The notes below the pieces were generated by a model, which ran no database searches, had not been told where the DNA came from, and was given only the letters and a program-made list of their open reading frames with translations. The translations under genes and the position numbers were made by a program. 64,000 nucleotides of DNA from Brachybacterium alimentarium. GTDB lineage: Bacteria > Actinomycetota > Actinomycetes > Actinomycetales > Dermabacteraceae. Each line of letters starts with the position of its first letter. The first letter of the stretch is position 1. Where the stretch lies: the NCBI RefSeq assembly GCF_002332425.1, contig NZ_NRGS01000018.1, forward strand, positions 1 to 64,000, written 5' to 3'. This document shows, in pieces, positions 21,355-56,056 of the stretch.

Positions 21355-21364
21355 TCCTATGGGA
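21355..21364. promoter_or_regulatory. ATCCTATAGGAT-type operator before the GntR/FCD gene
   Basis: TATCCTATGGGA, one base off the palindromic core TCCTATAGGA, lies 70 bases before the regulator start. Its position suggests autoregulation by this GntR/FCD protein, which makes that protein the first candidate to bind the copies at 26451, 31379, 42927 and 55931. Confidence 0.55.
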
Positions 21365-21433
21365 AAACGGATAGCCGGTCCGTGTGGGAATGCGGCGCCG
21401 GTCAGCGCATCTGCGCACGAAAGGACTCGCCTC

Positions 21434-22129
21434 ATGGCCATCAGACGACAGGTGCTGCGCGACGAGGTCGAGGAGCTCATGCTCCAGCGGCTGCTCGAAT
21501 CGCGCTGGGCACCGGGCTCCCGTCTGAGCATCGACGGACTGGCTCGTGACCTCGAGGTCTCCCCCACCCCGGTGCGGGAGGCGATGGTCTCGCTCGAGCG
21601 GTCCGGACTGGTGGAGTACGTGGCGCTGCGCGGCTACGTGGTGGCCCCGATGCTCGACGACGAGCAGATCACCGAGCTGCTCGAGGCCCGCAAGATCATC
21701 GAGATCGCCGTGCTGGATCGTGCCTTCGAGCACTGGGACGACTTCCTGACGGACCTCGAGGCCGCGCACGCTGCGCACGCCGAGATCATCGCCCGTATCG
21801 ACGCCGCCGGCGAGGTCGACTACGAGCTGGTGCGCGAGCACTTCCAGGCCGACTGGGGCTTCCACCAGACCCTCTACAAGTACGCGGACAACCGCTACCT
21901 CGGCCAGATGTTCGAGAGTCTGCGCACCCACACGCACCGCATGCGGCAGACCTGGGAAGGCGGACCCATGCAGCTCGACGCCCGCGAGGCGTACGAGGAG
22001 CACGGAGAGATCCTGGCGAAGGTGCGCCGGCACCACCATGACGCGGCGCTGAAGGCGCTCACCGACCACCTCGACGCGGTGCTGGTGCGCTCGCTCGCTA
22101 CCGTCGAGCACGGGCCCGCGCAGAGCTGA
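21434..22129 (+). CDS. GntR-family regulator, FCD subfamily
   Basis: This 231-residue repressor has an N-terminal winged helix (with SIDGLARDLEVSPTPVREAM, about residues 33-52) and an all-helical FCD effector domain. In that domain the metal/ligand residues are seen in EARKIIE, the Asp/His of DWGFHQTLY and the His of EEHGEIL. FCD regulators usually respond to organic or sugar acids. The ATG at 21434 follows GAAAGGACTC. It is the third gene after the two Gfo/Idh enzymes but has its own upstream region carrying a TCCTATGGGA palindrome. Confidence 0.92.
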   Translation: MAIRRQVLRDEVEELMLQRLLESRWAPGSRLSIDGLARDLEVSPTPVREAMVSLERSGLVEYVALRGYVVAPMLDDEQITELLEARKIIEIAVLDRAFEHWDDFLTDLEAAHAAHAEIIARIDAAGEVDYELVREHFQADWGFHQTLYKYADNRYLGQMFESLRTHTHRMRQTWEGGPMQLDAREAYEEHGEILAKVRRHHHDAALKALTDHLDAVLVRSLATVEHGPAQS

Positions 22130-22156
22130 TCGTTGGCCCCGCGACCGGCGATCAGC
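22125..22156. terminator. Stem-loop between convergent genes
   Basis: GCTGATCG and CGATCAGC form 8-base arms with a 16-base loop, overlapping the ends of the GntR gene and the converging membrane-protein gene. No U tract. Confidence 0.35.
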
Positions 22157-22985
22157 GCCCCTCGAGCGGGTCGCCTCCCTGATTCGGCAGGCGTAGCCGG
22201 AGGAACTCGGAGTGGACGTCGAGCGAACGGCTGACCCTGGCGACGGCGTCGCGCTCGATGCGATCCAGCTCCTCGCTGAGCGAGCCCAGCTGGCGATCGA
22301 TGCTGTTCAGGTTCGCCACCGCCTCCTCGCGCGCCTCGCCGGCGGCGGGGGCGAGGAACCCGGCCGTGTCCTCGAGGGCGCGCACCAGCTCGGGGACGTA
22401 GCGGTCGGCGATCCCCTCGAGCATCAGCATGTCGGCGTCCGAGGTGCGGCGGGACTGCAGCGACGGGGATCCCACCAGGGCGTTCACCCGCTGCAGCAGC
22501 AGCTCGGCGCGGTCGAGCACCGGTTTCACCAGGGGGTCGGGCCGGCCGCGTCGCATCCGGGAGAGCCGGCGGTGCTCGTGCTTCGTGGACTTCACCATCT
22601 TCTCGAGCACCGGCAGTGTGCCCGCAGGGATGTCGGTGCGGGCCGAGCTCAGCCGGGCCGGCGCATGGCTGCGGTTGCGCAGGAGGAAGGCCGTGCCTCC
22701 GCCGACGACGACACCGATCCCCAGCCCCGCCAGCAGGGGCGCCAGGAGGCCGGCGCCGCCGATCAGGCTGCTCACGCCGAGCACCATGAAACTGGTGATG
22801 CCGAAGGTTCCGCCCAGGACGGTGGGCACGCCGACGGTCAGCCAGCGGCCACGCCGGCGACGCACGGTGACGGACCGTGAGGCAGGGTCATGGACCGTGC
22901 CGACCAGCGGGCGCTGGGCAGGGTTCCAGGAGGGAATGCCGGTCCTGGCCGGCTGGGCACTCGGGGTGCGGCCCTGCTCGCTCAT
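22152..22985 (-). CDS. Membrane protein of unknown function with helical cytoplasmic domain
   Basis: This 277-residue protein was not recognised as a characterised family. It has a polar N-terminus (~60 residues), two adjacent hydrophobic helices (about 65-90 and 95-120, with IGGAGLLAPLLAGLGIGVVVGG), and a ~150-residue charged, helical C-terminal region with coiled-coil character that ends near LGSLSEELDRIERD. The two-helix anchor plus helical domain resembles small actinobacterial proteins annotated only as membrane proteins. The ATG at 22985 was chosen over an upstream in-frame codon that would add a basic, low-complexity extension. Confidence 0.7.
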   Translation of the reverse strand: MSEQGRTPSAQPARTGIPSWNPAQRPLVGTVHDPASRSVTVRRRRGRWLTVGVPTVLGGTFGITSFMVLGVSSLIGGAGLLAPLLAGLGIGVVVGGGTAFLLRNRSHAPARLSSARTDIPAGTLPVLEKMVKSTKHEHRRLSRMRRGRPDPLVKPVLDRAELLLQRVNALVGSPSLQSRRTSDADMLMLEGIADRYVPELVRALEDTAGFLAPAAGEAREEAVANLNSIDRQLGSLSEELDRIERDAVARVSRSLDVHSEFLRLRLPNQGGDPLEGR

Positions 22986-23182
22986 GATCACCCGCCGCTC
23001 TCTCGTGGGATGAACCAGGATATCGCGGGCGGCGGTGCATCGCCTGGGGGTTACCCGCCCCCTTCGGAGCGCGGGCAGCCCCACTCCCAGTGCAGGACGT
23101 TCGCGCTCAGCGCGCGGCGCGGGTCCTCAGCAGGCAGCGCGGCGTCGACGGGCGCAGCGAGCTCGAGCGGCGCAGTGGCCCT

Positions 23183-23953
23183 TCAGGCGGCGGTGTGGGC
23201 CTCGGCGATGCGCAGCAGCTCGAGGTAGCCGTCGAGCTCCCAGGCGGTACGGCCGACGAACAGGCCGGTGACGTGCTCGATCCCGAGCAGACCTGCAGCG
23301 TTGTCGAGGTTCACGGAGCCGCCGTAGAGCAGGCCGGCGACCTTCCCGGTGTACTCCGCACCCAGGGCGGCGAAGGGCTCGACGAGCTCTTCGACGGTGG
23401 CGGGCCGGCCCTTCTCCCCGATCGCCCAGATCGGCTCGTAGGCGATCACGACGCGCGAGAGCTCTTCGACGCTCAGACCCTCGAGCGCACCGCGCGCCTG
23501 GTCGAGGATGAACTCGCTGGAGCCCCCGGCCTCCTTCACGTCGGCGCTCTCGCCGATGCACAGCAACGGGGTCAGGCCGTGGCGCAGGGCCGCGGCGACC
23601 TTGAGACGAGTGGTCTCCACGGTCTCGCCGAAGTGCTCGCGACGCTCGGAATGCCCGATCTCGACGATCTGCGCACCGGCGTCCTTCGCCTGGGGCACGG
23701 ACACCTCGCCGGTCCAGGCGCCGGCATCCTCCCAGTGCGCGTTCTGCACGCCGAGCAGCACCGGCGAGTCCTCGCCGAGGATCCCGCGCACGGTGGTGGT
23801 CGCGGTGAACGACGGGATCACGAAGGGCTGCACCCCCGCCGGTGCCTGCGCCGCGTCGCCGCCGAGCGCCTCGCGCAGGCCCTCCGACCAGGCGCGTGCC
23901 TCGTCGAGCGTCTTGGTCATCTTCCAGCTGGTGCCGATCCACAGGGTGCTCAT
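23183..23953 (-). CDS. lerI: L-erythrulose 1-phosphate isomerase (TpiA-like)
   Basis: This 256-residue triosephosphate-isomerase-fold protein has catalytic Lys11, His101 (IGHSERR) and Glu173 (AYEPIWAIGE). The N-terminus reads WIGTSWKM rather than the GNWKMN of glycolytic TIM. That variant is typical of the EryH/LerI branch, which converts L-erythrulose 1-phosphate to D-erythrulose 4-phosphate. It is the last gene of a kinase-isomerase-isomerase run (lerK, derI, lerI), which supports this role over glycolysis. If no second tpiA exists in the genome, the glycolytic role would need reconsideration. Confidence 0.82.
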   Translation of the reverse strand: MSTLWIGTSWKMTKTLDEARAWSEGLREALGGDAAQAPAGVQPFVIPSFTATTTVRGILGEDSPVLLGVQNAHWEDAGAWTGEVSVPQAKDAGAQIVEIGHSERREHFGETVETTRLKVAAALRHGLTPLLCIGESADVKEAGGSSEFILDQARGALEGLSVEELSRVVIAYEPIWAIGEKGRPATVEELVEPFAALGAEYTGKVAGLLYGGSVNLDNAAGLLGIEHVTGLFVGRTAWELDGYLELLRIAEAHTAA

Positions 23954-24045
23954 GCGGGGTCCTTCCGGGTCAGGTGAGGCGAGTATGCGTCAAGGCGAAG
24001 GCCAGCGGGAGGGCGAGGCCTGGGCTGAGGCGGGGCGTGCGGCGG

Positions 24046-24516
24046 TCAGGCCTGCTCGAGGGAGCCGTCGTAGGCGCAGATCGCGTCGACCTTCGCGGCG
24101 GAGGAGGACTCGGGATCGAACTCGAGGTCCAGCCACACCTTGATCAGCTCCTGGGCGGCCTGCAGACCGATCACGCGCTGACCCATGCACAGCACCTGCG
24201 CGTTGTTGGACAGCACCGAGCGCTGCACGGAGTAGAGGTCGTGCGCGGTGACGGCGCGGATGCCGGGGACCTTGTTCGCGGCGATCGCGACGCCGAGGCC
24301 GGTGCCGCAGATCAGCAGCGCCCGGTCGGCCTCGCCGGCGGCGACCTTCTCCGCGGCGGCGACCGCGACGTTCGGGTAGTAGGTGCCGTCATCTGCCGAT
24401 CCGACGCCCACGTCGACGACGGACTCGACGCGGTCGTCGGCCTCGAGCAGGGCCTTGAACTCTTCCTTGTAACCGTAGCCGGCGTTGTCGCCGCCGACGA
24501 TGATCTTCAGTGCCAT
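24046..24516 (-). CDS. derI: D-erythrulose 4-phosphate isomerase (RpiB-like)
   Basis: This 156-residue RpiB/LacA-family isomerase has the active-site Cys at residue 70 in LICGTGLGVAIAANK. The N-terminal motif is VGGDNAGYGYK instead of the GSDHAG of ribose 5-phosphate isomerase B, as in EryI/DerI enzymes that convert D-erythrulose 4-phosphate to D-erythrose 4-phosphate. The ATG at 24516 has AAGGAGCACC at ideal spacing. It lies between lerK and lerI, so the three form one pathway segment ending in a pentose-phosphate-pathway intermediate. Confidence 0.83.
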   Translation of the reverse strand: MALKIIVGGDNAGYGYKEEFKALLEADDRVESVVDVGVGSADDGTYYPNVAVAAAEKVAAGEADRALLICGTGLGVAIAANKVPGIRAVTAHDLYSVQRSVLSNNAQVLCMGQRVIGLQAAQELIKVWLDLEFDPESSSAAKVDAICAYDGSLEQA

Positions 24517-24643: not shown

Positions 24644-26359
24644 TCAGCCGAGGTGCAGGCCGAGCTCCGTCATGAGGATCGAGAAGGAGATCGCGCCGGG
24701 ATCGGGGGTGCCCAGCGACTTGTCGCCGAGCACGCGGGCGCGGCCGAGGGTCGCGGTGATGTCGGCGGTCGCATCGGCCGCCTCGCGGGCCGTGGCGGCG
24801 GCCTCGATAATCGCCTCGGAGGCATTGTCCCCCGTGAAGGCCTCGGACAGGCGTGCCCGGAAGGGGACCAGGGCATCGACCATGGTCTTGTCGCCGACCT
24901 TCGCGCCGCCCAGGCGCAGCACCGCAGCGATGCCCGCGTCGAGCGCGTCGACGACCGTGCGCGCCGTGCAGCCGGCGTCATCCGCGAAGACGCCGCCGGC
25001 GGCGGTGAGCGCGCCGCCCCACAGCGCGCCCGAGGTTCCCCCGGCGGATTCTGCCCAGGCCTCGCCCGCGCGAACCAGCAGGGTGCGGGCCCCGGCGCCG
25101 TCCTGCAGCGCGGTCCGAGCGGCGGCCGCGGCGCCCTTGGAGCCGTAGGCCATGCCCTGGCCGTGGTCGCCGTCGCCGGCGATCGCATCGATCCGGCCCA
25201 GCTCGGCCTCCTCGCGGGCGCAGACGCGCTCGAACAGGGCGAGCGCATCGGAGACCTGCTCGGCGACGCGGCGGGACTCCTCGGTGGCCTGGGGAGTCTC
25301 GTCGGCTCCGGCCTCCCAGAAGGTCTCACGACGGGGCCGGTCGAGCGCCGGCATCGCGCCGCGATGGAAGGCGGGGGTGTCGACGGGGGCCAGCCAGTGC
25401 TGCTCGAGCTCGTCGTCCAGGAACACCAGGCTGAGCGACAGTCCGGCCATGTCCAGGCTGGTGATGAACTCGCCGACCTCGGGACGCACCGGGGTGATGC
25501 CCGCCGTCTCGAGGAGTTCGGCGGCCTTCGCGTAGACGACGAAGAGCTCCTCGTACTTCACGGTGCCGAGCCCGTTGACGATCACGGCCGCGCGGCCCTG
25601 GTAGCCGCCGTCGGTGCGCTCGGGCTGCTCGGCGAGAACGCCCTGGACCAGCAGGGAGGCGATCTCGTCGGCCGTGCCGATCACCTCGTCGCGCACGCCG
25701 GGCTCACCGTGGATGCCCAGGCCCACGCCCATCTGGCCGTCCTCGACGTGGAACAGCGGCTCGGAGGCGCCGGGCAGGGTGCAGCCGTCGAAGGCGACGC
25801 CGAAGGAGCGGGTGGCGTCGTTCGCCTTCCATGCGATCCGCTCGGCCGTGTCGAGGTCTGCGCCGGCCTCGATCGCGGCACCCGCGATCTTGAAGACGGG
25901 CAGGTCACCGGCGATCCCGCGACGGTCCCGGTGGTTCTCGGGAGTGTTGGAGACGATGTCGTCGCTGACGCGGATGATCCGCACGTCGATGCCCTCGGCG
26001 CGCAGCTTCTCCGCGGCTGCGCCGAAGTGGAGCACGTCCCCGGCGTAGTTGCCGAAGCCGAGGACCACCCCGCCACCGTTCTCGGCGTTGCGCGCCACCG
26101 AGTAGACCTGCGAGGCCGACGGGGAGGCGAAGACGTTCCCGCAGGGTGCGCCGTGGGCCATGCCGGGGCCCACCCAGCCGGCGAAGGCGGGGTAGTGGCC
26201 GGAGCCGCCGCCGATCACCAGGGCGGGCTGGCCCTGCGGGGTCTGCGTCGCCCGGACCACGCCGCCGTGCACGACGGCGACGTGGTCGGGGTGGGACAGG
26301 GCGAGGCCGCGGACCGCGTCGGTCGCGAAATCGGCCGGATCATTGAAGAGATAGGTCAT
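24644..26359 (-). CDS. lerK: L-erythrulose 1-kinase (DhaK-DhaL fusion)
   Basis: This 571-residue ATP-dependent dihydroxyacetone-kinase-family protein has a DhaK domain (1-330) and a DhaL domain (about 370-571). His217 (PLFHVEDGQMG) is at the position where DhaK binds the ketose carbonyl covalently. The GDGDHGQGM motif in DhaL supplies the Mg/ATP aspartates. Fused kinases of this type in Mycobacterium smegmatis phosphorylate L-erythrulose at O1 (LerK). The two isomerases downstream match the next two steps, so L-erythrulose is a better guess than dihydroxyacetone. A palindromic operator lies 92 bases before its start. Confidence 0.83.
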   Translation of the reverse strand: MTYLFNDPADFATDAVRGLALSHPDHVAVVHGGVVRATQTPQGQPALVIGGGSGHYPAFAGWVGPGMAHGAPCGNVFASPSASQVYSVARNAENGGGVVLGFGNYAGDVLHFGAAAEKLRAEGIDVRIIRVSDDIVSNTPENHRDRRGIAGDLPVFKIAGAAIEAGADLDTAERIAWKANDATRSFGVAFDGCTLPGASEPLFHVEDGQMGVGLGIHGEPGVRDEVIGTADEIASLLVQGVLAEQPERTDGGYQGRAAVIVNGLGTVKYEELFVVYAKAAELLETAGITPVRPEVGEFITSLDMAGLSLSLVFLDDELEQHWLAPVDTPAFHRGAMPALDRPRRETFWEAGADETPQATEESRRVAEQVSDALALFERVCAREEAELGRIDAIAGDGDHGQGMAYGSKGAAAAARTALQDGAGARTLLVRAGEAWAESAGGTSGALWGGALTAAGGVFADDAGCTARTVVDALDAGIAAVLRLGGAKVGDKTMVDALVPFRARLSEAFTGDNASEAIIEAAATAREAADATADITATLGRARVLGDKSLGTPDPGAISFSILMTELGLHLG

Positions 26360-26450
26360 CGGTGAGATTCCTTCACGGGGCGCTCGATCGGAGGGCCGAC
26401 GACGCGCGGTCGGTCGCCGTACAGGGGAGTACCCCAGGGCGCTCCCAATA

Positions 26451-26460
26451 TCCTATAGGA
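26451..26460. promoter_or_regulatory. TCCTATAGGA operator before lerK
   Basis: This is a perfect copy of the 10-base palindrome, extended as TATCCTATAGGACA. It sits in the 235-base gap between the GntP gene and lerK and so could control lerK-derI-lerI separately from the upstream genes. Confidence 0.65.
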
Positions 26461-26594
26461 CATGTTGGAGGATCGGCTGAGGGCTGAGGGCTGAGGGCAG
26501 AGGGCAGAGGCCGACGGGCGGACGAGCTGAGGGCCGACGGGCGGACGCACGGAGGCGAGGGCAGGCAGGGAGCAGGGCCCTGCCTGCCCGGGGG

Positions 26595-28103: not shown

Positions 28104-28120
28104 TGGGCCTTTCTCGAGAG

Positions 28121-28150
28121 GCCGGGGCGACCTGGTCAGGCCGCCCCGGC
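28121..28150. other. Stem-loop between apnO and the GntP gene
   Basis: Perfect 9-base arms GCCGGGGCG and CGCCCCGGC enclose a 12-base loop in the 64-base gap. It has no U tract. It may attenuate read-through or mark an mRNA processing point, lowering transporter expression relative to the enzyme. Confidence 0.45.
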
Positions 28151-28167
28151 GAGGTGAAGGGGTCGGC

Positions 28168-29070: not shown

Positions 29071-29180
29071 CAGGTGACTCCTTCGTGGGTGATGCCCCGG
29101 TGGGGCGGTGGATGCGGCCGATGCGGGCCGTTGGTGGGCGGGTGGCGGGTGGCGTGTGGACGCCTGAGGCGTCTGTCGGG

Positions 29181-31111: not shown

Positions 31112-31426
31112 GCCGCCGACGGGCAGGGTCGTCGCCCGGTGCTCGCCGGGCGCCCCGCCGCGGCGCTGCGCAGCAGGCGGTGCTCCTCGCGGGTCGTTGG
31201 CCGTCGGCCGTCGGCCGTCGGCGTCGAGCGCGGGCTCGCCGGCAGCCCACGTGCCGCCTCGTGCCCGCTGCCTTCCGTCCTCCGCGAGGGCTCGCTTCCT
31301 GCCGTCCTTCCCGCGGGCCCGTCGGCCCGGAGCTTCCCGCGACGTTCTGCCTGAAGGACTTCCCACGAAGGTCAACGATCCTATAGGATCGAGGGCAAAG
31401 ATGACCTCACGAAGAGAAGGACAAGG
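31112..31426 (+). promoter_or_regulatory. Leader region of the 31427 operon with a 16-bp palindrome
   Basis: This 315-base region carries the perfect 16-base palindrome CGATCCTATAGGATCG at 31376-31391, 36 bases before the start codon and therefore overlapping the expected promoter. The rest contains a short GTCGGCC tandem repeat near 31200 and no convincing gene. Confidence 0.7.
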
Positions 31427-32347
31427 ATGTTCACTGCGGAGAACTGGCCGATCGGCGCCAACATGCTGTCGTTCGGCAACACCACGCCGGACGGCACCCC
31501 CACCCTCGAGGCCTCGTCGTCGGTCTGGGCCTCTCAGCTGCGCCAGGTCAAGGCGCTCGGCGTCGACCAGATCGACCCCACCGACGCATGGCTGCCGCTC
31601 GCGAAGCTGAGCGACGAGCGCGTCGAGGAGTTCCGCAGCGTGCTCGACGGGGAGGGCATGACGCTCTCCTCGATCTCCATGACCCGCAACTCGGTGGTGG
31701 ACGTGAAGAACGGCGAGCAGAACGTGGCCGATGCGCTGCGCTTCATCGAGCTCGCTCCCAGCTTCGGCGTGCAGGTCGTGAACACCGGCTTCATGCAGGC
31801 CACCACCGAAGCGCAGAACAAGGCCATCTGGTTCTGGCTCGCCGACGGGCACGTCGACGACCCGGCGCTGCGCGACCTCGCGATCGAGCGCATCCGCACG
31901 CTCGGCGACGCGGCGCGCGACCAGGGCATCGAGGTCAGCCTCGAGATGTACGAGGACACCTATGTCGGCACCGCCGACGAGGCCGTCTCGTTCGTGAAGG
32001 ACGTGGGCCACGAGTCCGTCGGCCTGAACCCGGACATCGGTAACCTGGTGCGCCTGCACCGCGAGGTCGAGCCGTGGGAGGACATGTTCGAGAAGGTCCT
32101 GCCGCACTCGAACTTCTGGCACATCAAGAACTACACCCGTGACTTCGACCCCGCGACCGGCGCCTACTCCTCGGCGCCCATGCCGCTGAAGTACGGCTAC
32201 ATCAACTACCGCAAGGTCATCCTCCGCGCCCTCGAGCTCGGATACTCCGGACCCTTCTGCTGCGAGCACTACGGTTCGGACTCCCTCGGCGTCATCGCCG
32301 AGAACGTGCAGTACATCCGCCAGGTGCTGGCCTCGGCCCTCGCCTGA
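31427..32347 (+). CDS. Sugar isomerase/epimerase-like TIM barrel protein
   Basis: This 306-residue AP-endonuclease-2/xylose-isomerase-fold protein has the metal-ligand pattern Glu in VSLEMYEDTY, Asp in GLNPDIGNL, His in FWHIKNY and Glu in FCCEHYGSD. It is distinct in sequence from the oiaC product. It opens a five-gene operon of dehydrogenases, is preceded by GAAGAGAAGGACAAGG, and lies behind a perfect ATCCTATAGGAT palindrome. An isomerase, epimerase or decarboxylase of a sugar acid is likely; the substrate is unknown. Confidence 0.82.
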   Translation: MFTAENWPIGANMLSFGNTTPDGTPTLEASSSVWASQLRQVKALGVDQIDPTDAWLPLAKLSDERVEEFRSVLDGEGMTLSSISMTRNSVVDVKNGEQNVADALRFIELAPSFGVQVVNTGFMQATTEAQNKAIWFWLADGHVDDPALRDLAIERIRTLGDAARDQGIEVSLEMYEDTYVGTADEAVSFVKDVGHESVGLNPDIGNLVRLHREVEPWEDMFEKVLPHSNFWHIKNYTRDFDPATGAYSSAPMPLKYGYINYRKVILRALELGYSGPFCCEHYGSDSLGVIAENVQYIRQVLASALA

Positions 32348-32379
32348 TCCGTCTCCCTCCCGAACAAAGGAGTTCACAC

Positions 32380-33171
32380 ATGACTCTCGAGATCACCCGC
32401 ATCCAGCCCTTCCCCGACGAGCGCACCGTGATCGTCACCGGCGCCGGCGCCGAGCGCGGCATCGGCCGCAAGGTGGCCCGCAAGCTGGTGGCCGACGGCT
32501 GGAGCGTCGTCGCCGCCGACATCGACGGGCCCGCCGTCGAGTCCTTCGCCGCAGACCTCGCCGCCGAGAGCGGCGCGAAGGTCGTCGGCGTCGGCGTCGA
32601 CATCTCCGACCAGGCCGCCGTGGACGCCGCCTTCGAGCGCATCGACGCCGAGATGCCCCCGATCGCAGCCCTGGTCAACCTCGCCGGGATCCCCAGCCCC
32701 CACTCGATCCTCGAGATCACCTCGGAGATCTGGGACAAGGTCATGGACGTCAACGGCAAGGGCACCCTGCTGATGATTCAGGCCGCGGCCAAGCGCATGA
32801 TCGACGGCGGCTTCGGCGGACGCATCGTCAACACCGCCTCGATCACCGCCCTCGACGGCGGCGGCACCTTCTCCAAGACCGGCTACGCCGCCGCGAAGGC
32901 CGCCGTGCAGGGCCTCACCCGCGGCGCGGCCCGTGAGCTGGGCCAGTACGGCATCACCGCCAACGTGATCCTGCCCGGCCCGATCGACACCGACATCATG
33001 GGCGGAACGCTCACCGACGACCGCAAGGAAGGGATGAGCGCCAACATCCCGCTGCAGCGCGTGGGTCAGCCCGAGGAGGTCGCCGGTCTGATCGCGTTCC
33101 TGGTCAGCGAGGATTCCAGCTTCGTCAGCGGCACCTCGATCAACGTCGACGGCGGCAAGCACATGCACTGA
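32380..33171 (+). CDS. Short-chain dehydrogenase/reductase
   Basis: This 263-residue SDR has TGAGAERGIGRKVARKL at the cofactor site, the catalytic Tyr/Lys in YAAAKAAV and the Ser in TASITALDG. An ADID segment after beta-2 suggests NAD preference. It shares the unusual signature IDTDIMGG with the SDR at 35593, so the two are paralogues in one operon. AAAGGAG precedes its ATG. A strong hairpin follows its stop. Substrate unknown; a sugar-acid or ketose alcohol group is likely. Confidence 0.88.
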   Translation: MTLEITRIQPFPDERTVIVTGAGAERGIGRKVARKLVADGWSVVAADIDGPAVESFAADLAAESGAKVVGVGVDISDQAAVDAAFERIDAEMPPIAALVNLAGIPSPHSILEITSEIWDKVMDVNGKGTLLMIQAAAKRMIDGGFGGRIVNTASITALDGGGTFSKTGYAAAKAAVQGLTRGAARELGQYGITANVILPGPIDTDIMGGTLTDDRKEGMSANIPLQRVGQPEEVAGLIAFLVSEDSSFVSGTSINVDGGKHMH

Positions 33172-33179
33172 GACGCGCA

Positions 33180-33205
33180 GGCCCCGGGGAGGGTTCCCCG
33201 GGGCC
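33180..33205 (+). terminator. Strong stem-loop inside the five-gene operon
   Basis: Perfect 11-base arms GGCCCCGGGGA and TCCCCGGGGCC with a four-base loop start 8 bases after the SDR stop. It has no U tract. It may partly terminate transcription, so the first two genes could be expressed above the last three. Confidence 0.6.
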
Positions 33206-33266
33206 CCGTCGTCCGTGCACCGTCGCACCGCACTCCCGCAGCACGACCCTCAAAGGAGAGAAATCC

Positions 33267-34595
33267 ATGGCCGACTCGACCCTCTCGGGCGCCCTCGAAT
33301 TCGCGAAGATGCTCGCCGCCGGCGGCTTCCGTCTGGATCCGATGGAATCCGCCCCGTCCATCGAGGACATCCGTCGCCTCGCGAAGAAGCGCCTGCCCAC
33401 GATGGCCTTCGACATCATCGATGGCGCCTCGAACCACGAGATCACCCTCGACGCGAACACCCGTGACCTGGCCGAGGTGCGTTTCCGCCCCCGCTGGCTC
33501 ACCGACATCTCCTCGATCGACATCTCCACCGAGGTCGACGGCATGGCCCTGCAGCGCCCCTACGTGCTGGGCCCCCTCGGGCTGCAGCGGATGATCGGCG
33601 GGGAGGGCGAGCTGGGCGCGGTGCGCGCCGCCGGCAAGGCGAACATCCCCTTCACCATCTCCACCGCCTCGAACTGGGCGATGGAGGAGCTCGCGGACGA
33701 GGCCACCGGCCCGCTCTGGTACCAGCTGTACATGTACAAGAGCCCGAAGATCGTCTCGAACCTGATCGCCCGGGCGAAGGCCATCGGCGCCGAGGCGCTC
33801 GTGGTCACCGTCGACGTGCCGCTGAACGGCAAGCGGTACCGCGATCACCGCAACGGCATGTCGATCCCCCCGAAGATCACCCCGCAGAACGCGCTCCAGG
33901 CGATCCGGTACCTCGACTGGACCCGCGCGATCATGAAGCCGCCGACGATCGGCTTCCGCAACCTCGCCGGCGAGGTCCAGGGCAACAACGCCGTCTCCCA
34001 TCAGGAGTTCGTGAAGCGTTACCTCACGAACCTCACCCTGACCTGGGCAGACATCGAGGACGTGCGGAGTCAGTGGGACGGCCCGGTGTACATCAAGGGC
34101 ATCCTCACCCCCGAGGACGCGCAGCGCGCCCGGAAGGTCGGCGCCCAGGGCATCTACGTCTCCAACCACGGCGGGCGCCAGCTCGACTCCTCGCCCAGCA
34201 CCATCAGCGTGCTGCCCTCGATCGTCGATGCGGTGGGCGAGGACATGACCGTCGTGTTCGACTCCGGCGTCCGCACCGGCGACGACATCGCCAAGGCCCT
34301 CGCCGTCGGCGCGGACCTCGTCTCCATCGGCCGCGCCTGGGGCTACGGCAACGCCGCCGGCGGCGAGAAGGGTGTGCTGCGCGTGCTCGACATCCTCGAC
34401 GAGGAGCTCGAGCTGGCCATGGGCCAGCTCGGCGCGATCAGCATCGATGCGCTGGACCGCGGCTTCGTGGACTACCCCGAGGCCTGGCACGGAGAGGGCC
34501 TGCACCGCGAGCCCGAGTCCGGCTCGGGCACGACGGAGGCCCCGGGGACGACGGGCGCGCCGGGGGCCACGGGCACGACGGGGGTGACGGCATGA
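33267..34595 (+). CDS. FMN-dependent alpha-hydroxy acid dehydrogenase
   Basis: This 442-residue enzyme belongs to the LldD/glycolate-oxidase family. The catalytic His and Arg lie in YVSNHGGRQLD and the FMN phosphate site in DSGVRTGDD. It oxidises an (S)-2-hydroxy acid to the 2-keto acid. The last ~35 residues after the fold are a Gly/Thr/Pro-rich low-complexity tail, unusual for the family. CAAAGGAGAG precedes the ATG at 33267. It overlaps the next dehydrogenase gene by ATGA. Lactate is possible but the context suggests a sugar-derived hydroxy acid. Confidence 0.88.
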   Translation: MADSTLSGALEFAKMLAAGGFRLDPMESAPSIEDIRRLAKKRLPTMAFDIIDGASNHEITLDANTRDLAEVRFRPRWLTDISSIDISTEVDGMALQRPYVLGPLGLQRMIGGEGELGAVRAAGKANIPFTISTASNWAMEELADEATGPLWYQLYMYKSPKIVSNLIARAKAIGAEALVVTVDVPLNGKRYRDHRNGMSIPPKITPQNALQAIRYLDWTRAIMKPPTIGFRNLAGEVQGNNAVSHQEFVKRYLTNLTLTWADIEDVRSQWDGPVYIKGILTPEDAQRARKVGAQGIYVSNHGGRQLDSSPSTISVLPSIVDAVGEDMTVVFDSGVRTGDDIAKALAVGADLVSIGRAWGYGNAAGGEKGVLRVLDILDEELELAMGQLGAISIDALDRGFVDYPEAWHGEGLHREPESGSGTTEAPGTTGAPGATGTTGVTA

Positions 34596-35596
34596 GCGCC
34601 GCCTGGAAGCTCGCCGTCACCGCGGACTACGCGAACGCCGACGGCTCGACGATCTACGGCGACATCGGCCTGGGCACGCTCGCCGAGCAGGGGATCGAGT
34701 GGTCCCTGGTGGGCGAGGCCGGCCGTGACCTGCGCGGTGAGGAGCTCGAGGGCTTCGATGCCCTCTTCCTGCTGAGCGGCACGCCGTTCGGCTCCGCGCA
34801 GCTCGAGGGGGTCACCACCCTGAAGCACGTGGCGCGCTTCGGCGCCGGCTTCGACTCGGTGGACCTCGCCGCCTGCGACGCGGCCGGCATCACCGTCACC
34901 AATGCCCCGACCGGGCTGCGCGTGCCGATGGCGCACACGGCGCTCACCTTCCTGTTCGCCCTCGCGCACACCCTGCTGCCCAAGGACCGCCTGGTCCGCG
35001 AGGCCGACTGGGACCGCAAGGCCGAGTACCGGGGCCCGGGCCTCGCCACGGCCACGATCGGGATGATCGGGCTGGGCGGGATCGGCCAGGAGACCGTGCG
35101 CCAGCTGCGCGCACTGAACCTCGAGGTCATCGCCTGGAACCGGTCCCCGCGGCCGGAGTTCTGCGCCGAGGTGGGCGTGGAGCAGCTCGATTTCGACGAG
35201 GTGATCGCCCGCAGCGACTACCTGATCGTCACGGTCGCCGCGAACTCAGGGACCCGCCACCTGATCGGTGCACCGGAGCTCGCTCGGATGAAGGACTCCG
35301 CGTTCCTCATCAACATCGCCCGCGGCGCCGTCGTGGACGAGCCCGCACTGATCACAGCGCTGCAGGACGGCACGATCGCCGGCGCCGGGCTCGACGTGTT
35401 CGAGGTCGAGCCGCTCCCGGCGAGCAGTCCGCTGATCGGCCTGGAGAACGTGGTGCTGGCCCCGCACTCCCTGTGCTGGACCAAGGACTTCGCGGAGAGC
35501 ACCGGGGCCGAGGCGCTCGGCGAGGTCATCGCGATCGCGAGCGGGAACAGCCCGCGCAACGTCGTGAACTCGCCGCGCCCGGCGACCGGATCATGA
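34592..35596 (+). CDS. D-2-hydroxyacid dehydrogenase family protein
   Basis: This 334-residue NAD-dependent dehydrogenase is of the phosphoglycerate-dehydrogenase type. The Rossmann motif is IGLGGIGQETV (about residue 155), the catalytic Arg and Glu lie in NIARGAVVDEPAL and GAGLDVFEVEPL, and the His is in LAPHSLCW. It reduces a 2-keto acid to a D-2-hydroxy acid or the reverse. The start overlaps the previous stop and the end overlaps the next start, so translation is coupled. Having an FMN-type and an NAD-type 2-hydroxyacid dehydrogenase side by side suggests interconversion of the configuration of one 2-hydroxy acid. Confidence 0.87.
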   Translation: MSAAWKLAVTADYANADGSTIYGDIGLGTLAEQGIEWSLVGEAGRDLRGEELEGFDALFLLSGTPFGSAQLEGVTTLKHVARFGAGFDSVDLAACDAAGITVTNAPTGLRVPMAHTALTFLFALAHTLLPKDRLVREADWDRKAEYRGPGLATATIGMIGLGGIGQETVRQLRALNLEVIAWNRSPRPEFCAEVGVEQLDFDEVIARSDYLIVTVAANSGTRHLIGAPELARMKDSAFLINIARGAVVDEPALITALQDGTIAGAGLDVFEVEPLPASSPLIGLENVVLAPHSLCWTKDFAESTGAEALGEVIAIASGNSPRNVVNSPRPATGS

Positions 35597-41624: not shown

Positions 41625-41634
41625 GGAGGGGAGG

Positions 41635-42789
41635 TCACCTGGGGGAGGAGCGGGAGGAGTCGGAGTCGTGCGGGCCCGCGGCGCCGGTGGGGCGTTCGTC
41701 GGGATCACCCGCGGGACGAGGGGCGGCGTCGCCCCCGGACGACGCCGACGAGGCGCCGACGCCGACCGCGAGCGGTTCTCCGCGCTCGTCGAGCCCGTCC
41801 TCGTCCGGATCGCTCAGGGTGCCGTTGCGCCGGAGGAACCAGGCCGCGATGAGTGGCGCCGTGATCGCGGAGATCAGCACGGCCGTGGCGACCTGCACCG
41901 TCGCCACGCCCACGTACTGCTCGAAGCGTGGATCGGCCGACGCGATGATCGCCGGGGTGACGATCGAGTTCCCGGCCGTGGTGCCGGCCGCGAACCCGAT
42001 GCCGGCGCGCTTGCCGCGCCGCAGCAGGAAGCGGTAGGCGAGATAGGTGCAGCCACCGGTGAACGGGGTGACGACCAGGCCCAGCACGATGCCCGTCAGG
42101 CCGCCGGTGAGGATCGCGCTGAGATCGATCCCCGTGCCCAGGCCGAAGGCGAAGAAGGGGATCACGATGGTCGGGACCGGACGCATGATCTCGGTCCATC
42201 GGTGGTCGATGTTGCCCACGAGGATGCCGAGGATCAGCGGGATGATCGCGGCGGCGAAGGCGTCCAGCGGGATGGCGCCGAGGCCGGCCGCACCGATGAA
42301 CAGCATGGTGAAGAAGGGGCCGTCGTTGACGGCCGAGGCGACGTACGCGCCGCGGTCGGTCTTGGTGCCGTACTTGCCGGTGAAGGCGAGCCAGATGCCG
42401 CCGTTGGAGTTGTCGAAGGTGGCGAGCATGGCCAGGATCGAGATCCCCAGGATCCCGTCGAGGCCCACGGCGAAGCCGAGCGTCACGATGAGCAGGCCCG
42501 GCACGAGGGTCTTCCCGAGCAGGATCGCCCCGGTGGTGCCGGCGACGGGGCCGATGCTGCGCGGCGTGATCTGCATGCCGGTCGCGAAGATGACCAGCGC
42601 CATCATCGGCATCGGGGTCGCGAACAGCGCGGTCGTGAAGCTGCCGAGCTCGAGGAAGCCCGGTGCGGTGGTGCCGACCACGGCACCCAGGACCAGCGGA
42701 ATGACCATCGTCCCGCCGGGGATCTTGTCCATCGTGCCGTAGAGCGGCGAGCGGAGCGCGGCGAGGTTCGTCGGGGCTGCGTCGTTCAT
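41635..42789 (-). CDS. kdgT: 2-keto-3-deoxygluconate permease
   Basis: This 384-residue membrane protein matches the KdgT family, with KIPGGTMVIPLVLGA near the start, LATFDNSNGGIWLAFTGKYG, and FAAGTTAGNSIVTPAIIA near the end. It should import 2-keto-3-deoxygluconate, a product of pectin breakdown, by proton symport. The last ~60 residues are a polar, Ser/Asp-rich cytoplasmic tail absent from E. coli KdgT. AAGGAG precedes the ATG at 42789. An ATCCTATAGGAT-type site lies 140 bases upstream, and a LysR regulator is encoded next to it. Confidence 0.93.
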   Translation of the reverse strand: MNDAAPTNLAALRSPLYGTMDKIPGGTMVIPLVLGAVVGTTAPGFLELGSFTTALFATPMPMMALVIFATGMQITPRSIGPVAGTTGAILLGKTLVPGLLIVTLGFAVGLDGILGISILAMLATFDNSNGGIWLAFTGKYGTKTDRGAYVASAVNDGPFFTMLFIGAAGLGAIPLDAFAAAIIPLILGILVGNIDHRWTEIMRPVPTIVIPFFAFGLGTGIDLSAILTGGLTGIVLGLVVTPFTGGCTYLAYRFLLRRGKRAGIGFAAGTTAGNSIVTPAIIASADPRFEQYVGVATVQVATAVLISAITAPLIAAWFLRRNGTLSDPDEDGLDERGEPLAVGVGASSASSGGDAAPRPAGDPDERPTGAAGPHDSDSSRSSPR

Positions 42790-42926
42790 GGGGACTCCTT
42801 GTCGCCTCATCACGAGAAGGGGTGGTGCCGTCGCTCCCGGTCACAAGGGCGTACGGAGGCTGACCGGGGTGGGCGCGGGCGCCGGGTGAGGGGCCCGGAG
42901 CGGTACGGCTCGGTGCTCCGGGTGGG

Positions 42927-42937
42927 CCTATAGGATC
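42927..42937. promoter_or_regulatory. CCTATAGGAT operator before kdgT
   Basis: GCCTATAGGATC keeps eight palindromic bases (CCTATAGG) of the recurring ATCCTATAGGAT site. It lies between the lysR stop and the kdgT start, upstream of kdgT. Confidence 0.5.
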
Positions 42938-43997: not shown

Positions 43998-44347
43998 CCT
44001 GTCCTCCTGAGTGCCGGTTCGGGTTCGGGGTGGCGGGGGCTGCCAGCTCGGACGTGATGGGGTCACGATCCGATGTCGGCAGCGCCTGCGGGCAGTGTCA
44101 TCACCGCTGGTCATCCACGTGTTGTGACACGCCTTACCAATATCGCATATAGGATTTCCGGATCGCGGATCGCCGACGGCGTCTTCGCGGGTCACTCCGT
44201 TGGTAGCTTTCGAGACACCTTGATGGCGAGGTCCCGCCGCTCCGGTTCGTCCGGGCACATCGCAGTGCAAGCGGCTCCGCCTCCTCGAGGTGAACCAGTT
44301 CTCGACCAGCACGATCCCCTGACCCTCACGATGAAGTGGAGTCCGCC
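43998..44347. promoter_or_regulatory. Divergent control region lysR/tctC
   Basis: This 350-base gap contains ATATCGCATATAGGAT at about 44142-44155. The 26 bases 44147-44172 match 50210-50235, in front of the rhamnonate MFS gene, at 23 of 26 positions. A TTGTGA hexamer (44122-44127) precedes TATAGG (44148-44153) at a rather long spacing. No gene was seen. Confidence 0.5.
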
Positions 44348-50196: not shown

Positions 50197-50235
50197 ATAT
50201 CCATCTTGGATATAGGATTCCCGGAACCCGGATCG
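50197..50235. promoter_or_regulatory. Operator region between the SDR and the rhamnonate operon
   Basis: ATATCCATCTTGGATAT (50197-50213) is a 7+3+7 palindrome followed at once by AGGAT, so ATATAGGAT begins at 50210. The 26 bases from 50210 match the segment at 44147 in 23 positions. It sits in the divergent promoter region of the rhamnonate genes. Confidence 0.6.
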
Positions 50236-51839: not shown

Positions 51840-51885
51840 GTCTCACCTGTCCTGCCCGTCTCACCCGTCCACGAAGGAGTCTCCC

Positions 51886-54113: not shown

Positions 54114-54344
54114 CCGATACCGCCCGAGAACGCCACCACGCACCAGACATCGGATGTACCGCCCTGCGGTCGGGTCAGCGGGAGCACCCCGACTCCTGGC
54201 ACTGTGGTGGTGAACCCACCGCGGAGATGCCCGACGCGCTCGCCGGCGGCAGGACGCCGCGGGCAGCGCCGTCGGCACCCCTCGCCGCCGACGGCGGAGA
54301 CCTCGACCCCCCTCCCGTATCCGCACCCTTCGAAGGAGAAACCC

Positions 54345-55196
54345 ATGGAACTGCGACGACTCGGCCCGATCGGCCAGGAGAAGCCCGCCCTCGTGCAGGA
54401 CGGCGTCACCTACCGCCTCGAGGGCCTCACGGCCGACATCGACGGGGCCTTCCTGGCCGACGGCGGCCTCGAGAAGGCGGCCCGGGCGTCGGCCGCCGGA
54501 GAGCTGCCGGTGTGGGAGGGCGCGGAGTCCGAGCGCGTCGGCGCCCCCATCGCGCGCCCCGAGGCCGTGCTGTGCATCGGCCAGAACTATGCCGAGCATG
54601 CGGCGGAGTCCGGCGCGGAGCCGCCCACCACGCCGATCCTGTTCTTCAAGCACCCCAACACTGTGGTGGGCCCGCACGACGAGGTCCCGATCCCGCCCGG
54701 CGCCACCAAGGTCGACTGGGAGGTCGAGCTCGGTGTGGTCATCGGGAAGCGGGCCTCCTACCTGAAGGACGAGCAGGAGGCGCTCGACGTCATCGCCGGC
54801 TACGTGACCAGCCACGATGTCTCCGAGCGTGACTTCCAGATCGCGGAGTCCGGAGGCCAGTGGTCCAAGGGCAAGTGCGCCGAGAACTTCAACCCCGTCG
54901 GCCCGGCCCTGGTGCCGGCGGCCGACGTGGAGCAGCAGAACCTGCGGCTCTGGTCGAACGTGAACGGCGAGGCCCGTCAGGACTCCACCACGGCGGACAT
55001 GATCTTCTCCGTCGCGCAGCTGGTGCACCACCTGTCGCAGTACATGGTGCTCTCGCCCGGCGACCTCATCAACACCGGCACCCCGCAGGGCGTGGCCCTG
55101 TCCGGCCGCTTCCCGTACCTCAGCGACGGCGACGTGGTCGAGCTGGGCATCGCGGGCCTCGGCGAGCAGCGCCAGGTGTTCGCCCAGCGTCGCTGA
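54345..55196 (+). CDS. FAH-family hydrolase (probable 2,4-diketo-3-deoxy-L-rhamnonate hydrolase)
   Basis: This 283-residue fumarylacetoacetate-hydrolase-fold enzyme has metal ligands in DWEVELGVVIG and SHDVSERDFQ, and the PLVP-type segment VGPALVPAADV. In the L-rhamnose diketo-hydrolase pathway a member of this family cleaves 2,4-diketo-3-deoxy-L-rhamnonate to pyruvate and L-lactate. The ATG at 54345 follows GAAGGAGAAACCC. The 231-base gap after rhmD is long for an operon but no terminator stands out there. A clear terminator follows the gene. Confidence 0.83.
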   Translation: MELRRLGPIGQEKPALVQDGVTYRLEGLTADIDGAFLADGGLEKAARASAAGELPVWEGAESERVGAPIARPEAVLCIGQNYAEHAAESGAEPPTTPILFFKHPNTVVGPHDEVPIPPGATKVDWEVELGVVIGKRASYLKDEQEALDVIAGYVTSHDVSERDFQIAESGGQWSKGKCAENFNPVGPALVPAADVEQQNLRLWSNVNGEARQDSTTADMIFSVAQLVHHLSQYMVLSPGDLINTGTPQGVALSGRFPYLSDGDVVELGIAGLGEQRQVFAQRR

Positions 55197-55237
55197 GGCA
55201 GGACCCGGAGGCCCTCGCGGGTCGCCTCGGCAGGGAA

Positions 55238-55274
55238 CAGGCCCCCGGAACCGTGTCACGGTTCCGGGGGCCTG
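55238..55274 (+). terminator. Terminator of the rhamnonate operon
   Basis: Seventeen-base perfect arms (CAGGCCCCCGGAACCGT and its complement up to 55274) with a three-base loop make a very stable hairpin 41 bases after the FAH-family stop. There is no U tract. Confidence 0.8.
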
Positions 55275-55356
55275 CGCTGTCGGCCGGAGTCCGCCGGCCG
55301 GAGCCCGTCGGGGGAGTGCTGTCGGCGGAACGTCGTCCGAGGCCAGCCGTCCCCTG

Positions 55357-55673
55357 TCAGCGTGCGGCGGCGAGCCCTTCGTCGATCCGGCGCACGGCCT
55401 GGCGTTCCGCCACACGAGCACCAGGGCCGGGAGGGAGAACAGCAGCACCCGGCTCATCCGGAACACGGGCGGCAGCACCTTGTGCCAGTTCTTCGGATCC
55501 CGCAGCGCCTTGAAGCTCGGGGCGAAGCGCTCCCGGAAGGTGTACGGGTCGACGGTGGAGAACAGTGCCTGCAGGGAACCGAAGAACGCGGCCCGGATCG
55601 CGAGCTGGGAGAGGTGCACCAGGACCGGGGAGAGATGAGCTGGCCGCAAGGGCGCGATGGCAGAGCTGTCCAT
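55357..55673 (-). CDS. Small protein of unknown function with an apparent frameshift
   Basis: Reading leftward from the ATG at 55673 gives a protein-like sequence that contains VHLSQLAIRAAFFGSLQALF, then FRERFAPSFKALRDPKNWHK and a hydrophobic segment ending LPALVLVWRNA. At about 55405 the frame loses sense, while the -1 frame continues as QAVRRIDEGLAAAR and stops at 55357. The intact product would be about 105 residues with one or two membrane segments. AGGA lies before the start and overlaps a TCCTACAGGA palindrome (55678-55687). Family not recognised; either a true frameshift or a sequencing error. Confidence 0.5.
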
Positions 55674-56056
55674 GGATTCCTACAGGATCGCTGACGGGGT
55701 GCAGGGGGTCGAGGGAGGGGTCGGAGGGACTGGCCGCGCAGGGTGTGCGCGGCGGGTGTCGACGGAGCCCGCTGCTCGTGCTTACTCGGCGGAAACATCG
55801 GTGCAGGTACGCTCGGGCACCGCGCCCCTGGTCCCTCGGTGCCCGGCTGTCGTGCCGCAGCCGGGCTCGTCGGGTCCAGTGGTGATCCTGTCGGATCGGC
55901 GACAGGGCAGGGCGACCACCTCTCGCGTAAATCCAATAGGATCTGTATGCTTCTGGGTATCGCGCAGCGCTCGGAGGTCGTGCTCCCCGGCGCCGCGGGC
56001 ACCACGGCGTCGGCTCCCCTCGGAGACGGCGTCCCTCGACGAAGGAGTCCCTCCGT
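55674..56056 (+). promoter_or_regulatory. Control region before the tetronate-type operon
   Basis: This 383-base gap holds TCCTACAGGA (55678-55687) beside the leftward small gene and ATCCAATAGGAT (55931-55942), one base off the recurring ATCCTATAGGAT palindrome, 115 bases before the next start. No gene was seen. Confidence 0.6.

Follow-up and report, generated by a model that had tools for sequence, protein, structure and literature searches.

The question raised by this locus is whether the AT-rich palindrome that recurs in front of several sugar-acid operons is an operator and, if so, which protein reads it.

Distribution of the palindrome

Allowing up to two mismatches to ATCCTATAGGAT, seven copies are found in the window (the entire 64-kb stretch of DNA analysed) compared with 0.32 expected from dinucleotide shuffling, and seven or more such matches were reached by none of 100 shuffles. 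By simple gene calls all seven copies are intergenic and none is coding, the intergenic share of the window being 12.5%. Control palindromes with a half-site composition equal to that of ATCCTATAGGAT (n = 89) yield on average 0.06 intergenic and 0.20 coding matches in the same DNA. The initial annotation had placed copies at 21355, 26451, 31379, 42927 and 55931, all in upstream regions, and had considered such a palindrome to be rare by chance; the scan bears this out. The copies at 55677–55688 and 55885–55896 were absent from its list, and with these added the 56057 operon has three upstream copies (Table 1). No counterpart of the 55885 copy was noticed among the listed copies of relatives.

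The seven copies score between 12.8 and 25.8 bits on a site matrix that was made from copies at ≤2 mismatches. The matrix is symmetric, with CC and GG each at 98 to 99%, a conservation that is inflated because the sites were chosen at this threshold. No Rfam match at gathering score was found within the window.

A whole-genome scan at ≤2 mismatches, which had been proposed earlier, returned 20 places, seven of them inside the window. The context was examined for 11 of the 13 places outside it (leaving out C3:187012 and C22:88045). C22:3645, C22:3788 and C33:55584 are intergenic and keep the TATA core, C2:121882 and C2:86014 are intergenic with an altered core, and six places are coding with other cores (two on C3 and one each on C11, C21, C25 and C35).

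Related ATATAGGAT elements had also been reported before tctC (44147) and an MFS gene (50210). The former holds up, with the element lying within 300 bp of five of five orthologous genes. The MFS gene at 50391 was rejected as a target via this element, which is missing in four of four orthologs. On the site matrix the two elements reach 12.6 and 9.8 bits, respectively, both below the seven copies; the first also lies under the six highest values (12.7 to 14.7) obtained from 114 kb of DNA elsewhere in the genome, part of which includes the C33 and C2 copies. The element before tctC is conserved and possibly a degenerate site.

Table 1. Coordinates of the palindrome copies, the proposed regulator and the associated genes in the window.
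Feature	Coordinates	Strand	Remarks
Operator copy ATCCTATGGGAA (putative)	21354..21365	.	Two mismatches; ~69 bp upstream of FCD_A start codon
FCD_A, GntR/FCD regulator, 231 aa, proposed palindrome binder	21434..22129	+	Pfam, co-occurrence
Triosephosphate-isomerase family, third gene of kinase operon	23183..23953	-	NCBIfam 369.1 bits, cut-off 293
RpiB family isomerase	24046..24516	-	TIGR02133 200.4 bits, cut-off 168.2
Dihydroxyacetone-kinase family	24644..26359	-	NF011049 727 bits, cut-off 492
Operator copy ATCCTATAGGAC (putative)	26450..26461	.	One mismatch; ~91 bp upstream of kinase start 26359
Perfect operator ATCCTATAGGAT (putative)	31378..31389	.	~38 bp upstream of 31427 start
Five-gene operon	31427..36387	+	Putative functions by family
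Transporters: MFS (40377) and KdgT-like (41635)	40377..42789	-	
Operator copy GGCCTATAGGAT (putative)	42925..42936	.	Two mismatches; ~136 bp upstream of KdgT-like gene
ATATAGGAT before tctC	44147..44155	+	Conserved in 5/5 relatives; 12.6 bits
Operator copy TTCCTACAGGAT (putative)	55677..55688	.	Two mismatches; upstream of 56057 operon
Weak operator-like copy ATCCTGTCGGAT	55885..55896	.	Two mismatches; 12.8 bits
Operator copy ATCCAATAGGAT (putative)	55931..55942	.	One mismatch; ~115 bp upstream of 56057 start
Tetronate-type operon	56057..61150	+	Putative functions by family

Features of the proposed regulator

FCD_A combines an N-terminal GntR winged helix (PF00392, 44.8 bits against a cut-off of 27) with a C-terminal FCD domain (PF07729, 62.7 bits against 24.3). 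Asp140, His144, His190 and His212 are present in 103 of 103 aligned homologs, several of which come from the same genomes, a count that excludes the eleven named loci where the simple caller gave no FCD_A gene. These four residues, an Asp and three His as in metal-dependent FCD regulators, align with the metal residues of TM0439 (PMC6608401).

The AlphaFold model of FCD_A has a pLDDT of 93.2. Its top TM-scores among the 50 matches listed are to VanR-type AlkR (0.76) and TM0439 (0.73), compared with 0.47 for Escherichia coli FadR. Helices cover residues 76 to 225, in agreement with the effector domain of the VanR group, which has about 150 residues rather than 170 (PMC2018728). DSSP assigns six helices to this domain, although the first (50 residues) may represent a pair and two of the short ones could be a single helix; the VanR group is characterized by six rather than seven.

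Association of site and regulator across genomes

The pair of site and regulator recurs over many actinobacteria. In the genus and family, 47 genomes were compared: all 30 with FCD_A (E ≤ 1e-15) carry the palindrome at ≤1 mismatch, as does one of the 17 without it (Fisher p 1e-11, uncorrected for shared ancestry). At the order level, four genomes (G048, G080, G096 and G110) have the palindrome and no FCD_A, and two (L151 and L165) of 11 FCD_A-homolog regions contain no copy at ≤2 mismatches. In a class sample of 296 genomes the palindrome is present in 24 of 45 with a profile match at 1e-30 and in 28 of 251 without. Outside the genus and family, all six genomes of this sample with a match at 1e-60 carry the palindrome at most 300 bp from such a gene, three of them having contributed sequence to the profile.

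A further 71 actinobacterial loci, none from the genus or family, were selected by FCD_A protein only, being the best 80 of 563 candidates minus nine Brachybacterium/Dermabacter loci. The site at ≤1 mismatch is found in 59 of them and is missing from 12, with 99 intergenic copies and none coding; the 89 control palindromes match a mean of 0.39 loci, with 0.19 intergenic matches. L204 and L222 contain Asp34 and Pro44, yet lack a site at this threshold. The protein patterns used for the named loci included Asp34 and VSPTPVREA, and therefore these loci say nothing on how far those residues vary. Twelve gene families are present in at least eight of the 71 loci (best 80 of 563), and FCD_A is the sole regulator among them; in this count a family whose members diverge past 40% identity could appear as more than one. 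The target set is unchanged down to 36% FCD_A identity. The regions of relatives contain 131 intergenic matches against a control mean of 0.88 (89 palindromes), a count that is not independent because the regions were picked around known sites or FCD_A.

The product of 21434 had been put forward as the first candidate, and co-occurrence, adjacency and the class-wide sample all favour it, as does the fact that no other regulator is widely shared among the loci: the palindrome is very probably its docking site.

Predicted target genes and site positions

The predicted targets of FCD_A are its own gene, the kinase–isomerase operon, the TIM-barrel operon, the tetronate-type operon and KdgT. The genes at 23183, 24046 and 24644 may be LerI, DerI and LerK (L-erythrulose kinase), respectively. 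The L-erythrulose utilisation system of Mycobacterium smegmatis reportedly consists of LerK–LerI–DerI. Kinase, triosephosphate-isomerase-like and RpiB-like genes likewise adjoin each other here, but the RpiB-like gene scores only 150.8 bits with the DerI model NF051858, under its cut-off of 240. The 31427 operon encodes, in this order, a TIM-barrel epimerase-like protein, an SDR, an FMN-dependent hydroxyacid dehydrogenase-like protein, a D-2-hydroxyacid dehydrogenase-like protein and a second SDR. Hydroxyacyl-CoA-dehydrogenase-like, GntP permease, DUF1537-type kinase and L-threonate-dehydrogenase-like products are encoded in the 56057 operon, where the threonate dehydrogenase and kinase models score under their cut-offs. 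A reading of the operon from 28168 to 30005 as D-apionate catabolism, with putative ApnO and ApnS, was not retained; a literature search on it gave nothing useful.

After the removal of seven named loci that duplicate other genomes, the site lies a median of 72 bp upstream of FCD_A homologs (41 site–gene pairs), 45 bp upstream of TIM-barrel orthologs (85 pairs) and 114 bp upstream of tetronate-operon orthologs (31 pairs). Most listed relatives have a copy 104 to 116 bp upstream of the 56057 ortholog, and in many relatives a copy precedes the kinase ortholog. In relatives, the 55677-type copy has a divergent gene of ∼494 codons at a distance of 187 to 214 bp; this gene is Nramp-like in the one relative tested and is absent here. 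Ten of 12 site–gene pairs at the KdgT/MFS promoters have a TTGACN box whose end is 18 nt upstream of the 12-mer (0.22 expected by chance for the TTGAC box). This box is rare at the other targets (FCD_A 0/41, tetronate operon 1/31, kinase 8/66 and TIM-barrel 14/85 pairs), and therefore the transporters are the only targets at which the site clearly overlaps the promoter.

Alternative explanations

A second FCD gene of the window, FCD_B (30413–31111), was overlooked by the initial annotation. It adjoins the perfect copy, its end being 266 bp from the site, and its Pfam domains identify a bona fide GntR/FCD protein that could itself bind the palindrome. However, three genomes with the palindrome (G010, G011 and G024) have no FCD_B match at 1e-20, and three others (G002, G021 and G033) have only distant ones (best 6e-23 to 2e-21). 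FCD_B-type genes of relatives keep the 29181-type neighbour in 12 of 12 among those listed, and FCD_B does not figure among the families that recur widely in the 71 loci (best 80 of 563). No canonical GT/AC site common to FCD_B-type genes was found upstream of them. FCD_B was rejected as the binder on its genome distribution, a reading that we hold to be very improbable, and because it does not track the palindrome the proposed regulon of several FCD-type regulators stands as a regulon but with one regulator, FCD_A. Hardly more credible is that a sigma factor reads TATAGGAT as a double -10 box, the palindrome then belonging to the promoter itself rather than being an operator. TAGGAT is similar to actinobacterial -10 boxes, and in the KdgT promoters the 12-mer sits at the expected -10 position, but the palindrome is confined mostly to one operon set, tracks FCD_A over genomes, is symmetric and occurs in two or three copies upstream of a single operon.

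That FCD_A binds the palindrome as an activator is unlikely, although less so than either of these. In its favour, no TTGAC box is seen upstream of the sites that precede FCD_A and the tetronate-type operon. Against it, sites lie close to start codons (the TIM-barrel median given above) and, at the transporters, on the core promoter, and the family members Atu1419 (PMC7797058) and HypR (PMC6608401) act as repressors. Finally, promoter DNA is commonly higher in A and T, and an AT-rich motif might recur there by chance. The intergenic control means of 0.06 against 7 in the window, 0.88 against 131 in the regions of relatives and 0.19 against 99 in the 71 loci (≤1 mismatch; best 80 of 563) make this negligible.

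Departure from the GntR operator signature

The GntR signature GT-Nx-AC is absent from the operator, with CC and GG in the matrix at the GT and AC places. This signature is a typical GntR trait with known exceptions and does not define the protein family. In FCD_A, Asp34 and Pro44 replace Arg35 and Arg45 of FadR, a residue match that hinges on one gap, placed differently in a second alignment; Asp is found at position 34 in 99 of 103 aligned homologs. The loss of both arginines, which read GT/AC, may explain why the operator departs from it, and the combination suggests a natural specificity switch. Gln44 homologs that retain the site occur in L220 and, as a fragment, in L267. The prediction that FCD proteins near G-bearing ATCGTATACGAT would have Arg at the switch position, the place of Asp34, failed, with Ser and Ala found in two relatives. 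The FCD paralog C7:21685, the only other match in this genome in the presence/absence search, has Gly at the Asp34 place; it closely follows another gene and no shared palindrome was found, making it uninformative as a contrast, and it was dropped.

The closest parallel is Atu1419 of Agrobacterium fabrum, a VanR-group FCD repressor whose structure is also among the listed fold matches of FCD_A. This GntR/FCD protein recognizes a 10 bp palindrome with TATA at its centre, situated at the -10 box or in the spacer that separates it from -35, with two palindromes in one promoter region, and has a metal-bound effector domain (PMC7797058). Its operator ATGTATACAT, however, contains an essential G read by Arg45, while TCCTATAGGA has C at that place, FCD_A has Pro44 and the pathway is another. 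Compared with the FadR-subfamily class TKGT-N2/3-ACMA (Suvorova 2015, PMC4494728), TCCTATAGGA fits the two-base-spacer form column by column in length and centre, but has CT and AG instead of GT and AC. The same paper ties a rare Asp at HTH position 28 statistically to a G/C pair, with a proposed C contact, and excluded regulators not fitting the consensus. NanR (direct repeats TGGTATAW) and BioR (TTATMKATAA) resemble FCD_A in being FCD proteins off the common consensus; neither operator equals TCCTATAGGA (PMC4494728). Among the matches listed, a literature search found no matching regulon, and a search of 5.39 million papers for the operator strings, with figure logos and RegPrecise outside its scope, found no GntR-regulator paper among the 40 titles listed of 45. 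An operator without the GT/AC pair of the family, together with Asp34 and Pro44 in the regulator, appears to be new.

Proposed mechanism and implications

We put the probability at roughly 0.86 that the palindrome serves as operator for FCD_A, an autoregulated VanR-type FCD repressor that is released by a metabolite and co-induces the target operons. From association, position and conservation we infer binding, repression, the dimer and the effector, and FCD_A is most likely an autoregulated, metabolite-responsive repressor. A dimer would bind TCCTATAGGA on or adjoining the core promoter and block RNA polymerase. A metabolite from four-carbon sugar-acid or tetrulose catabolism, sensed at the FCD-domain metal site, would free the DNA, upon which the transporters would be induced together with the kinase–isomerase trio and both the TIM-barrel and the tetronate-type operons. 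A broader proposal, for which the odds are close to even but slightly adverse, is that FCD_A represents an old, actinobacteria-wide FCD class in which arginine loss (Asp34, Pro44) accompanied a G-to-C operator change (GT/AC to CT/AG). The regulon would then be insulated from the cell's other FCD regulators, and FCD_A would act as a common switch for pathways converging on a tetrulose.

An operator, a regulator and target operons are now proposed for a set of sugar-acid genes in actinobacteria whose annotation otherwise stops at the family, which makes the pathway and its inducer directly testable. FCD_A may also offer a natural case for a change of DNA specificity in GntR/FCD regulators, in which an Asp linked to a G/C pair by published statistics (PMC4494728) stands beside a site with C at that place.

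The palindrome in the window and its candidate targets

The palindrome ATCCTATAGGAT occurs seven times in the window at up to two mismatches, compared with 0.32 copies expected from dinucleotide shuffles, and at least seven copies were reached in none of 100 such shuffles. The initial annotation had placed this palindrome before several sugar-acid operons. Its five main coordinates are correct within a base or two, and two further copies that it did not list lie upstream of the 56057 operon. The proposed upstream placement also holds: all seven copies are intergenic by the codon-usage gene calls, in a window that is 12.5% intergenic. Control palindromes with the same half-site letters (n = 89, equal stringency) give on average 0.06 intergenic and 0.20 coding matches in the window. 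The genome-wide scan that had been suggested (≤2 mismatches, 3.98 Mb) finds 20 places, seven of them within the window (binomial p 2e-8 under even spread). Of the related elements described before tctC and the MFS gene, that before tctC is kept 5/5, though weak, while that at 50210 is not conserved.

Features of the window; genes were called by codon usage and families assigned by NCBIfam/Pfam scans
Feature	Position	Strand	Basis
FCD_A, GntR/FCD regulator	21434	+	gene call, NCBIfam/Pfam
DAK-family kinase, RpiB-family and TPI-family genes	26359 down to 23183	minus	gene calls, NCBIfam/Pfam
FCD_B, second FCD regulator	30413-31111		gene call, NCBIfam/Pfam
TIM-barrel/SDR/dehydrogenase operon	from 31427	+	gene calls, NCBIfam/Pfam
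KdgT-like and MFS transporters	42789 down to 40377	minus	gene calls, NCBIfam/Pfam
Hydroxyacyl-CoA-dehydrogenase-like/GntP/DUF1537/threonate-dehydrogenase-like (tetronate-type) operon	from 56057	+	gene calls, NCBIfam/Pfam

The kinase trio may correspond to LerK, LerI and DerI; for its RpiB-family gene the DerI model scores under its cut-off. A short tandem repeat of GAGGGCT/GAGGGCA-type units lies at about 26477-26510, near the 26450 operator. The 31427-32347 product is a very close relative of the solved structure 5tnv (E 1.6e-152), whose name goes no further than AP endonuclease family protein 2; judged by the regulon around it, the product may be a sugar epimerase or decarboxylase. The FCD_B gene stands divergent to a group (26595-30005) that encodes a TIM-barrel protein, a PGDH_C/KARI-like dehydrogenase and a GntP permease and may serve D-apionate catabolism; none of the seven window copies lies upstream of this group.

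Elsewhere in the genome, two copies (C22:3645 and C22:3788) sit between two divergent MFS genes, and in a relative a perfect palindrome (L145:12576) precedes a gene whose N-terminus is similar. Copies in relatives also lie upstream of a PdxA-family gene and an Nramp-like gene. The 55677 copy is the counterpart of the Nramp-side copy, and no Nramp-like gene is found near it among the gene calls of the window. The large intergenic stretch 55197-56056 holds three operator copies; at the equivalent place several relatives carry a divergent gene, about 494 codons long and Nramp-like in the single case tested, that is missing from the window. Far from the main cluster, at L163:5211 and L164:5535 in two relatives, the palindrome has a DapA-family gene on one side and a ROK regulator on the other (by Pfam for L163 only).

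FCD_A as the predicted regulator

The genome encodes 11 FCD proteins, and the initial annotation named the 21434 product as first candidate. Comparison of 118 genomes (palindrome at ≤1 mismatch; FCD_A at E ≤ 1e-15, FCD_B at E ≤ 1e-20) favours this choice. Among 47 genus and family genomes, with our own counted, 30/30 with FCD_A and 1/17 without contain the palindrome (Fisher p 1e-11, shared descent ignored). In the sole exception, G008, two isolated copies have the cores CTACAG and CTCTAG, and a close FCD_A is lacking. FCD_B, overlooked in the initial annotation, was rejected as partner: several palindrome-bearing genomes have no FCD_B or only distant matches. At the order level, the palindrome occurs without FCD_A in a few genomes (G048, G080, G096 and G110), and nine of 11 regions around FCD_A homologs contain a copy (none in L151 and L165). 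Regions of relatives around FCD_A or known sites, hence picked with sites already known, contain 131 intergenic copies and one coding copy at ≤2 mismatches (control means 0.88 and 2.40). In G015 a second FCD_A paralog (L123:10696-11379) is flanked on both sides by palindrome copies.

Loci were also picked by the protein, using a profile of the FCD_A alignment against genome contigs. We retained the best 80 of 563 confirmed loci, and 71 of these lie outside Brachybacterium and Dermabacter (Streptomyces, Prauserella, Nocardiopsis, Microbacterium, Agrococcus, Rathayibacter, Sinomonas, Georgenia, Rothia and others). The site is present at ≤1 mismatch in 59 of these 71, with 99 intergenic and no coding copies; the 89 control palindromes occur in 0.39 loci on average and in nine at most, these nine all coding. 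Twelve families recur in at least eight of the 71 loci, and FCD_A (61) is the sole regulator among them. The others are the TIM-barrel gene (57), kinase (49), TPI (43), RpiB (41), hydroxyacyl-CoA-dehydrogenase-like (34), SDR (32), MFS (28), PdxA-like (21; a label based on the Pfam match of one relative and on N-terminal similarity), TctC type (19), TctA type (19) and LtnD-like (13).

Across the class, 296 genomes were sampled, and the palindrome occurs in 24/45 with a profile match at 1e-30 and in 28/251 without; by score, many weaker matches are other FCD clades. Outside the genus and family, all six genomes with a match at 1e-60 carry a palindrome at most 300 bp from a matching gene (in G069 for one of its two FCD_A-type genes), three of the six having supplied a sequence to the profile. 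The sequence AACCTATAGGAT recurs in G135 and in seven genomes of genus g84 (family f38); where FCD_A-type genes were found there, it does not lie next to them, and it is perhaps another regulator's site.

Sensor domain and proposed recognition residues

The AlphaFold model of FCD_A is confident (pLDDT 93.2, pTM 0.87). A fold search ranks Lar (6ep3) first and TM0439 second by E-value, and the best TM-scores among the matches listed are 0.76 for AlkR (VanR) and 0.73 for TM0439. Asp140, His144, His190 and His212, kept in 103/103 aligned homologs, fall in the alignment on the metal-site residues of TM0439, as these are given in the available text of PMC6608401. We infer a carboxylate-type or tetrulose-type effector.

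The site matrix, derived from 235 site-gene records, is [A/T]TCCTATAGGA[T/A]; CC and GG reach 98 to 99%, values overstated by choosing records at ≤2 mismatches. TCCTATAGGA aligns with the two-base form of the FadR-subfamily consensus (TKGT/ACMA, two or three bases between; PMC4494728), except that C replaces G at site position 6/14. The available text of PMC4494728 ties this position to HTH position 28, where Arg pairs with G and a rare Asp is proposed to pair with C; since Glu34 of FadR is position 27 in its Table 1, position 28 is FadR Arg35. The FCD_A residue here is Asp34, and the aligned homologs have Asp in 99/103, three gaps and one Glu. This Glu homolog is from Kribbella, and its locus lacks an intergenic palindrome at ≤3 mismatches. 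None of the ten other FCD proteins of the genome has Asp here, one being too short to tell. Pro44 of FCD_A occupies the place of Atu1419 Arg45, which reads an essential G (available text of PMC7797058); eight of those ten proteins have Arg there. A GT/AC twin of the palindrome, ATCGTATACGAT, occurs at ≤1 mismatch in two relatives (L258:5336, 5359, 13652 and 13684; L259:6177 and 6288), close to another FCD regulator; its copies lie between unannotated genes and in front of genes of the FAH family. We infer an Asp34/Pro44 specificity switch as a testable proposition and grade it no higher because the gap placement behind the residue match moves in a second alignment, the site is retained beside two homologs with Gln44, L204 and L222 have both residues and no site, and the regulators near ATCGTATACGAT carry Ser and Ala instead of the predicted Arg.

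Site position and relation to known regulons

The site lies a median of 45 bp from the start codon of the TIM-barrel gene, 56.5 bp from that of the kinase, 72 from that of FCD_A and 114 from that of the tetronate-type operon, and there are recurrently two or three copies upstream of a single gene. In 10/12 site-gene pairs at KdgT/MFS promoters, the 12-mer is preceded by a TTGACN box whose end lies 18 nt upstream of it; from shuffles, 0.22 pairs with TTGAC would be expected. TTGAC is enriched yet uncommon before the kinase (8/66 pairs, 1.43 expected) and the TIM-barrel gene (14/85, 2.28 expected), and is found upstream of the site in 0/41 pairs for FCD_A. For the tetronate-type operon it occurs in 1/31 pairs, and a TANNNT box follows the site by 3 nt in 15/31. 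These positions fit a predicted FCD_A repressor sitting on the core promoter, much like the Atu1419 palindromes, which overlap the -10 box or fall between -35 and -10 (available text of PMC7797058).

A text search of the literature with the operator strings found no GntR-regulator paper among the matches listed, and the matches listed by further searches included no corresponding regulon. According to the available text of PMC2018728, the 2007 survey of Mycobacterium smegmatis GntR regulators sought palindromes with the family's preferred nucleotides, a filter that may miss a site like this one. We judge the FCD_A system to be a new putative FCD regulon with a non-canonical operator.
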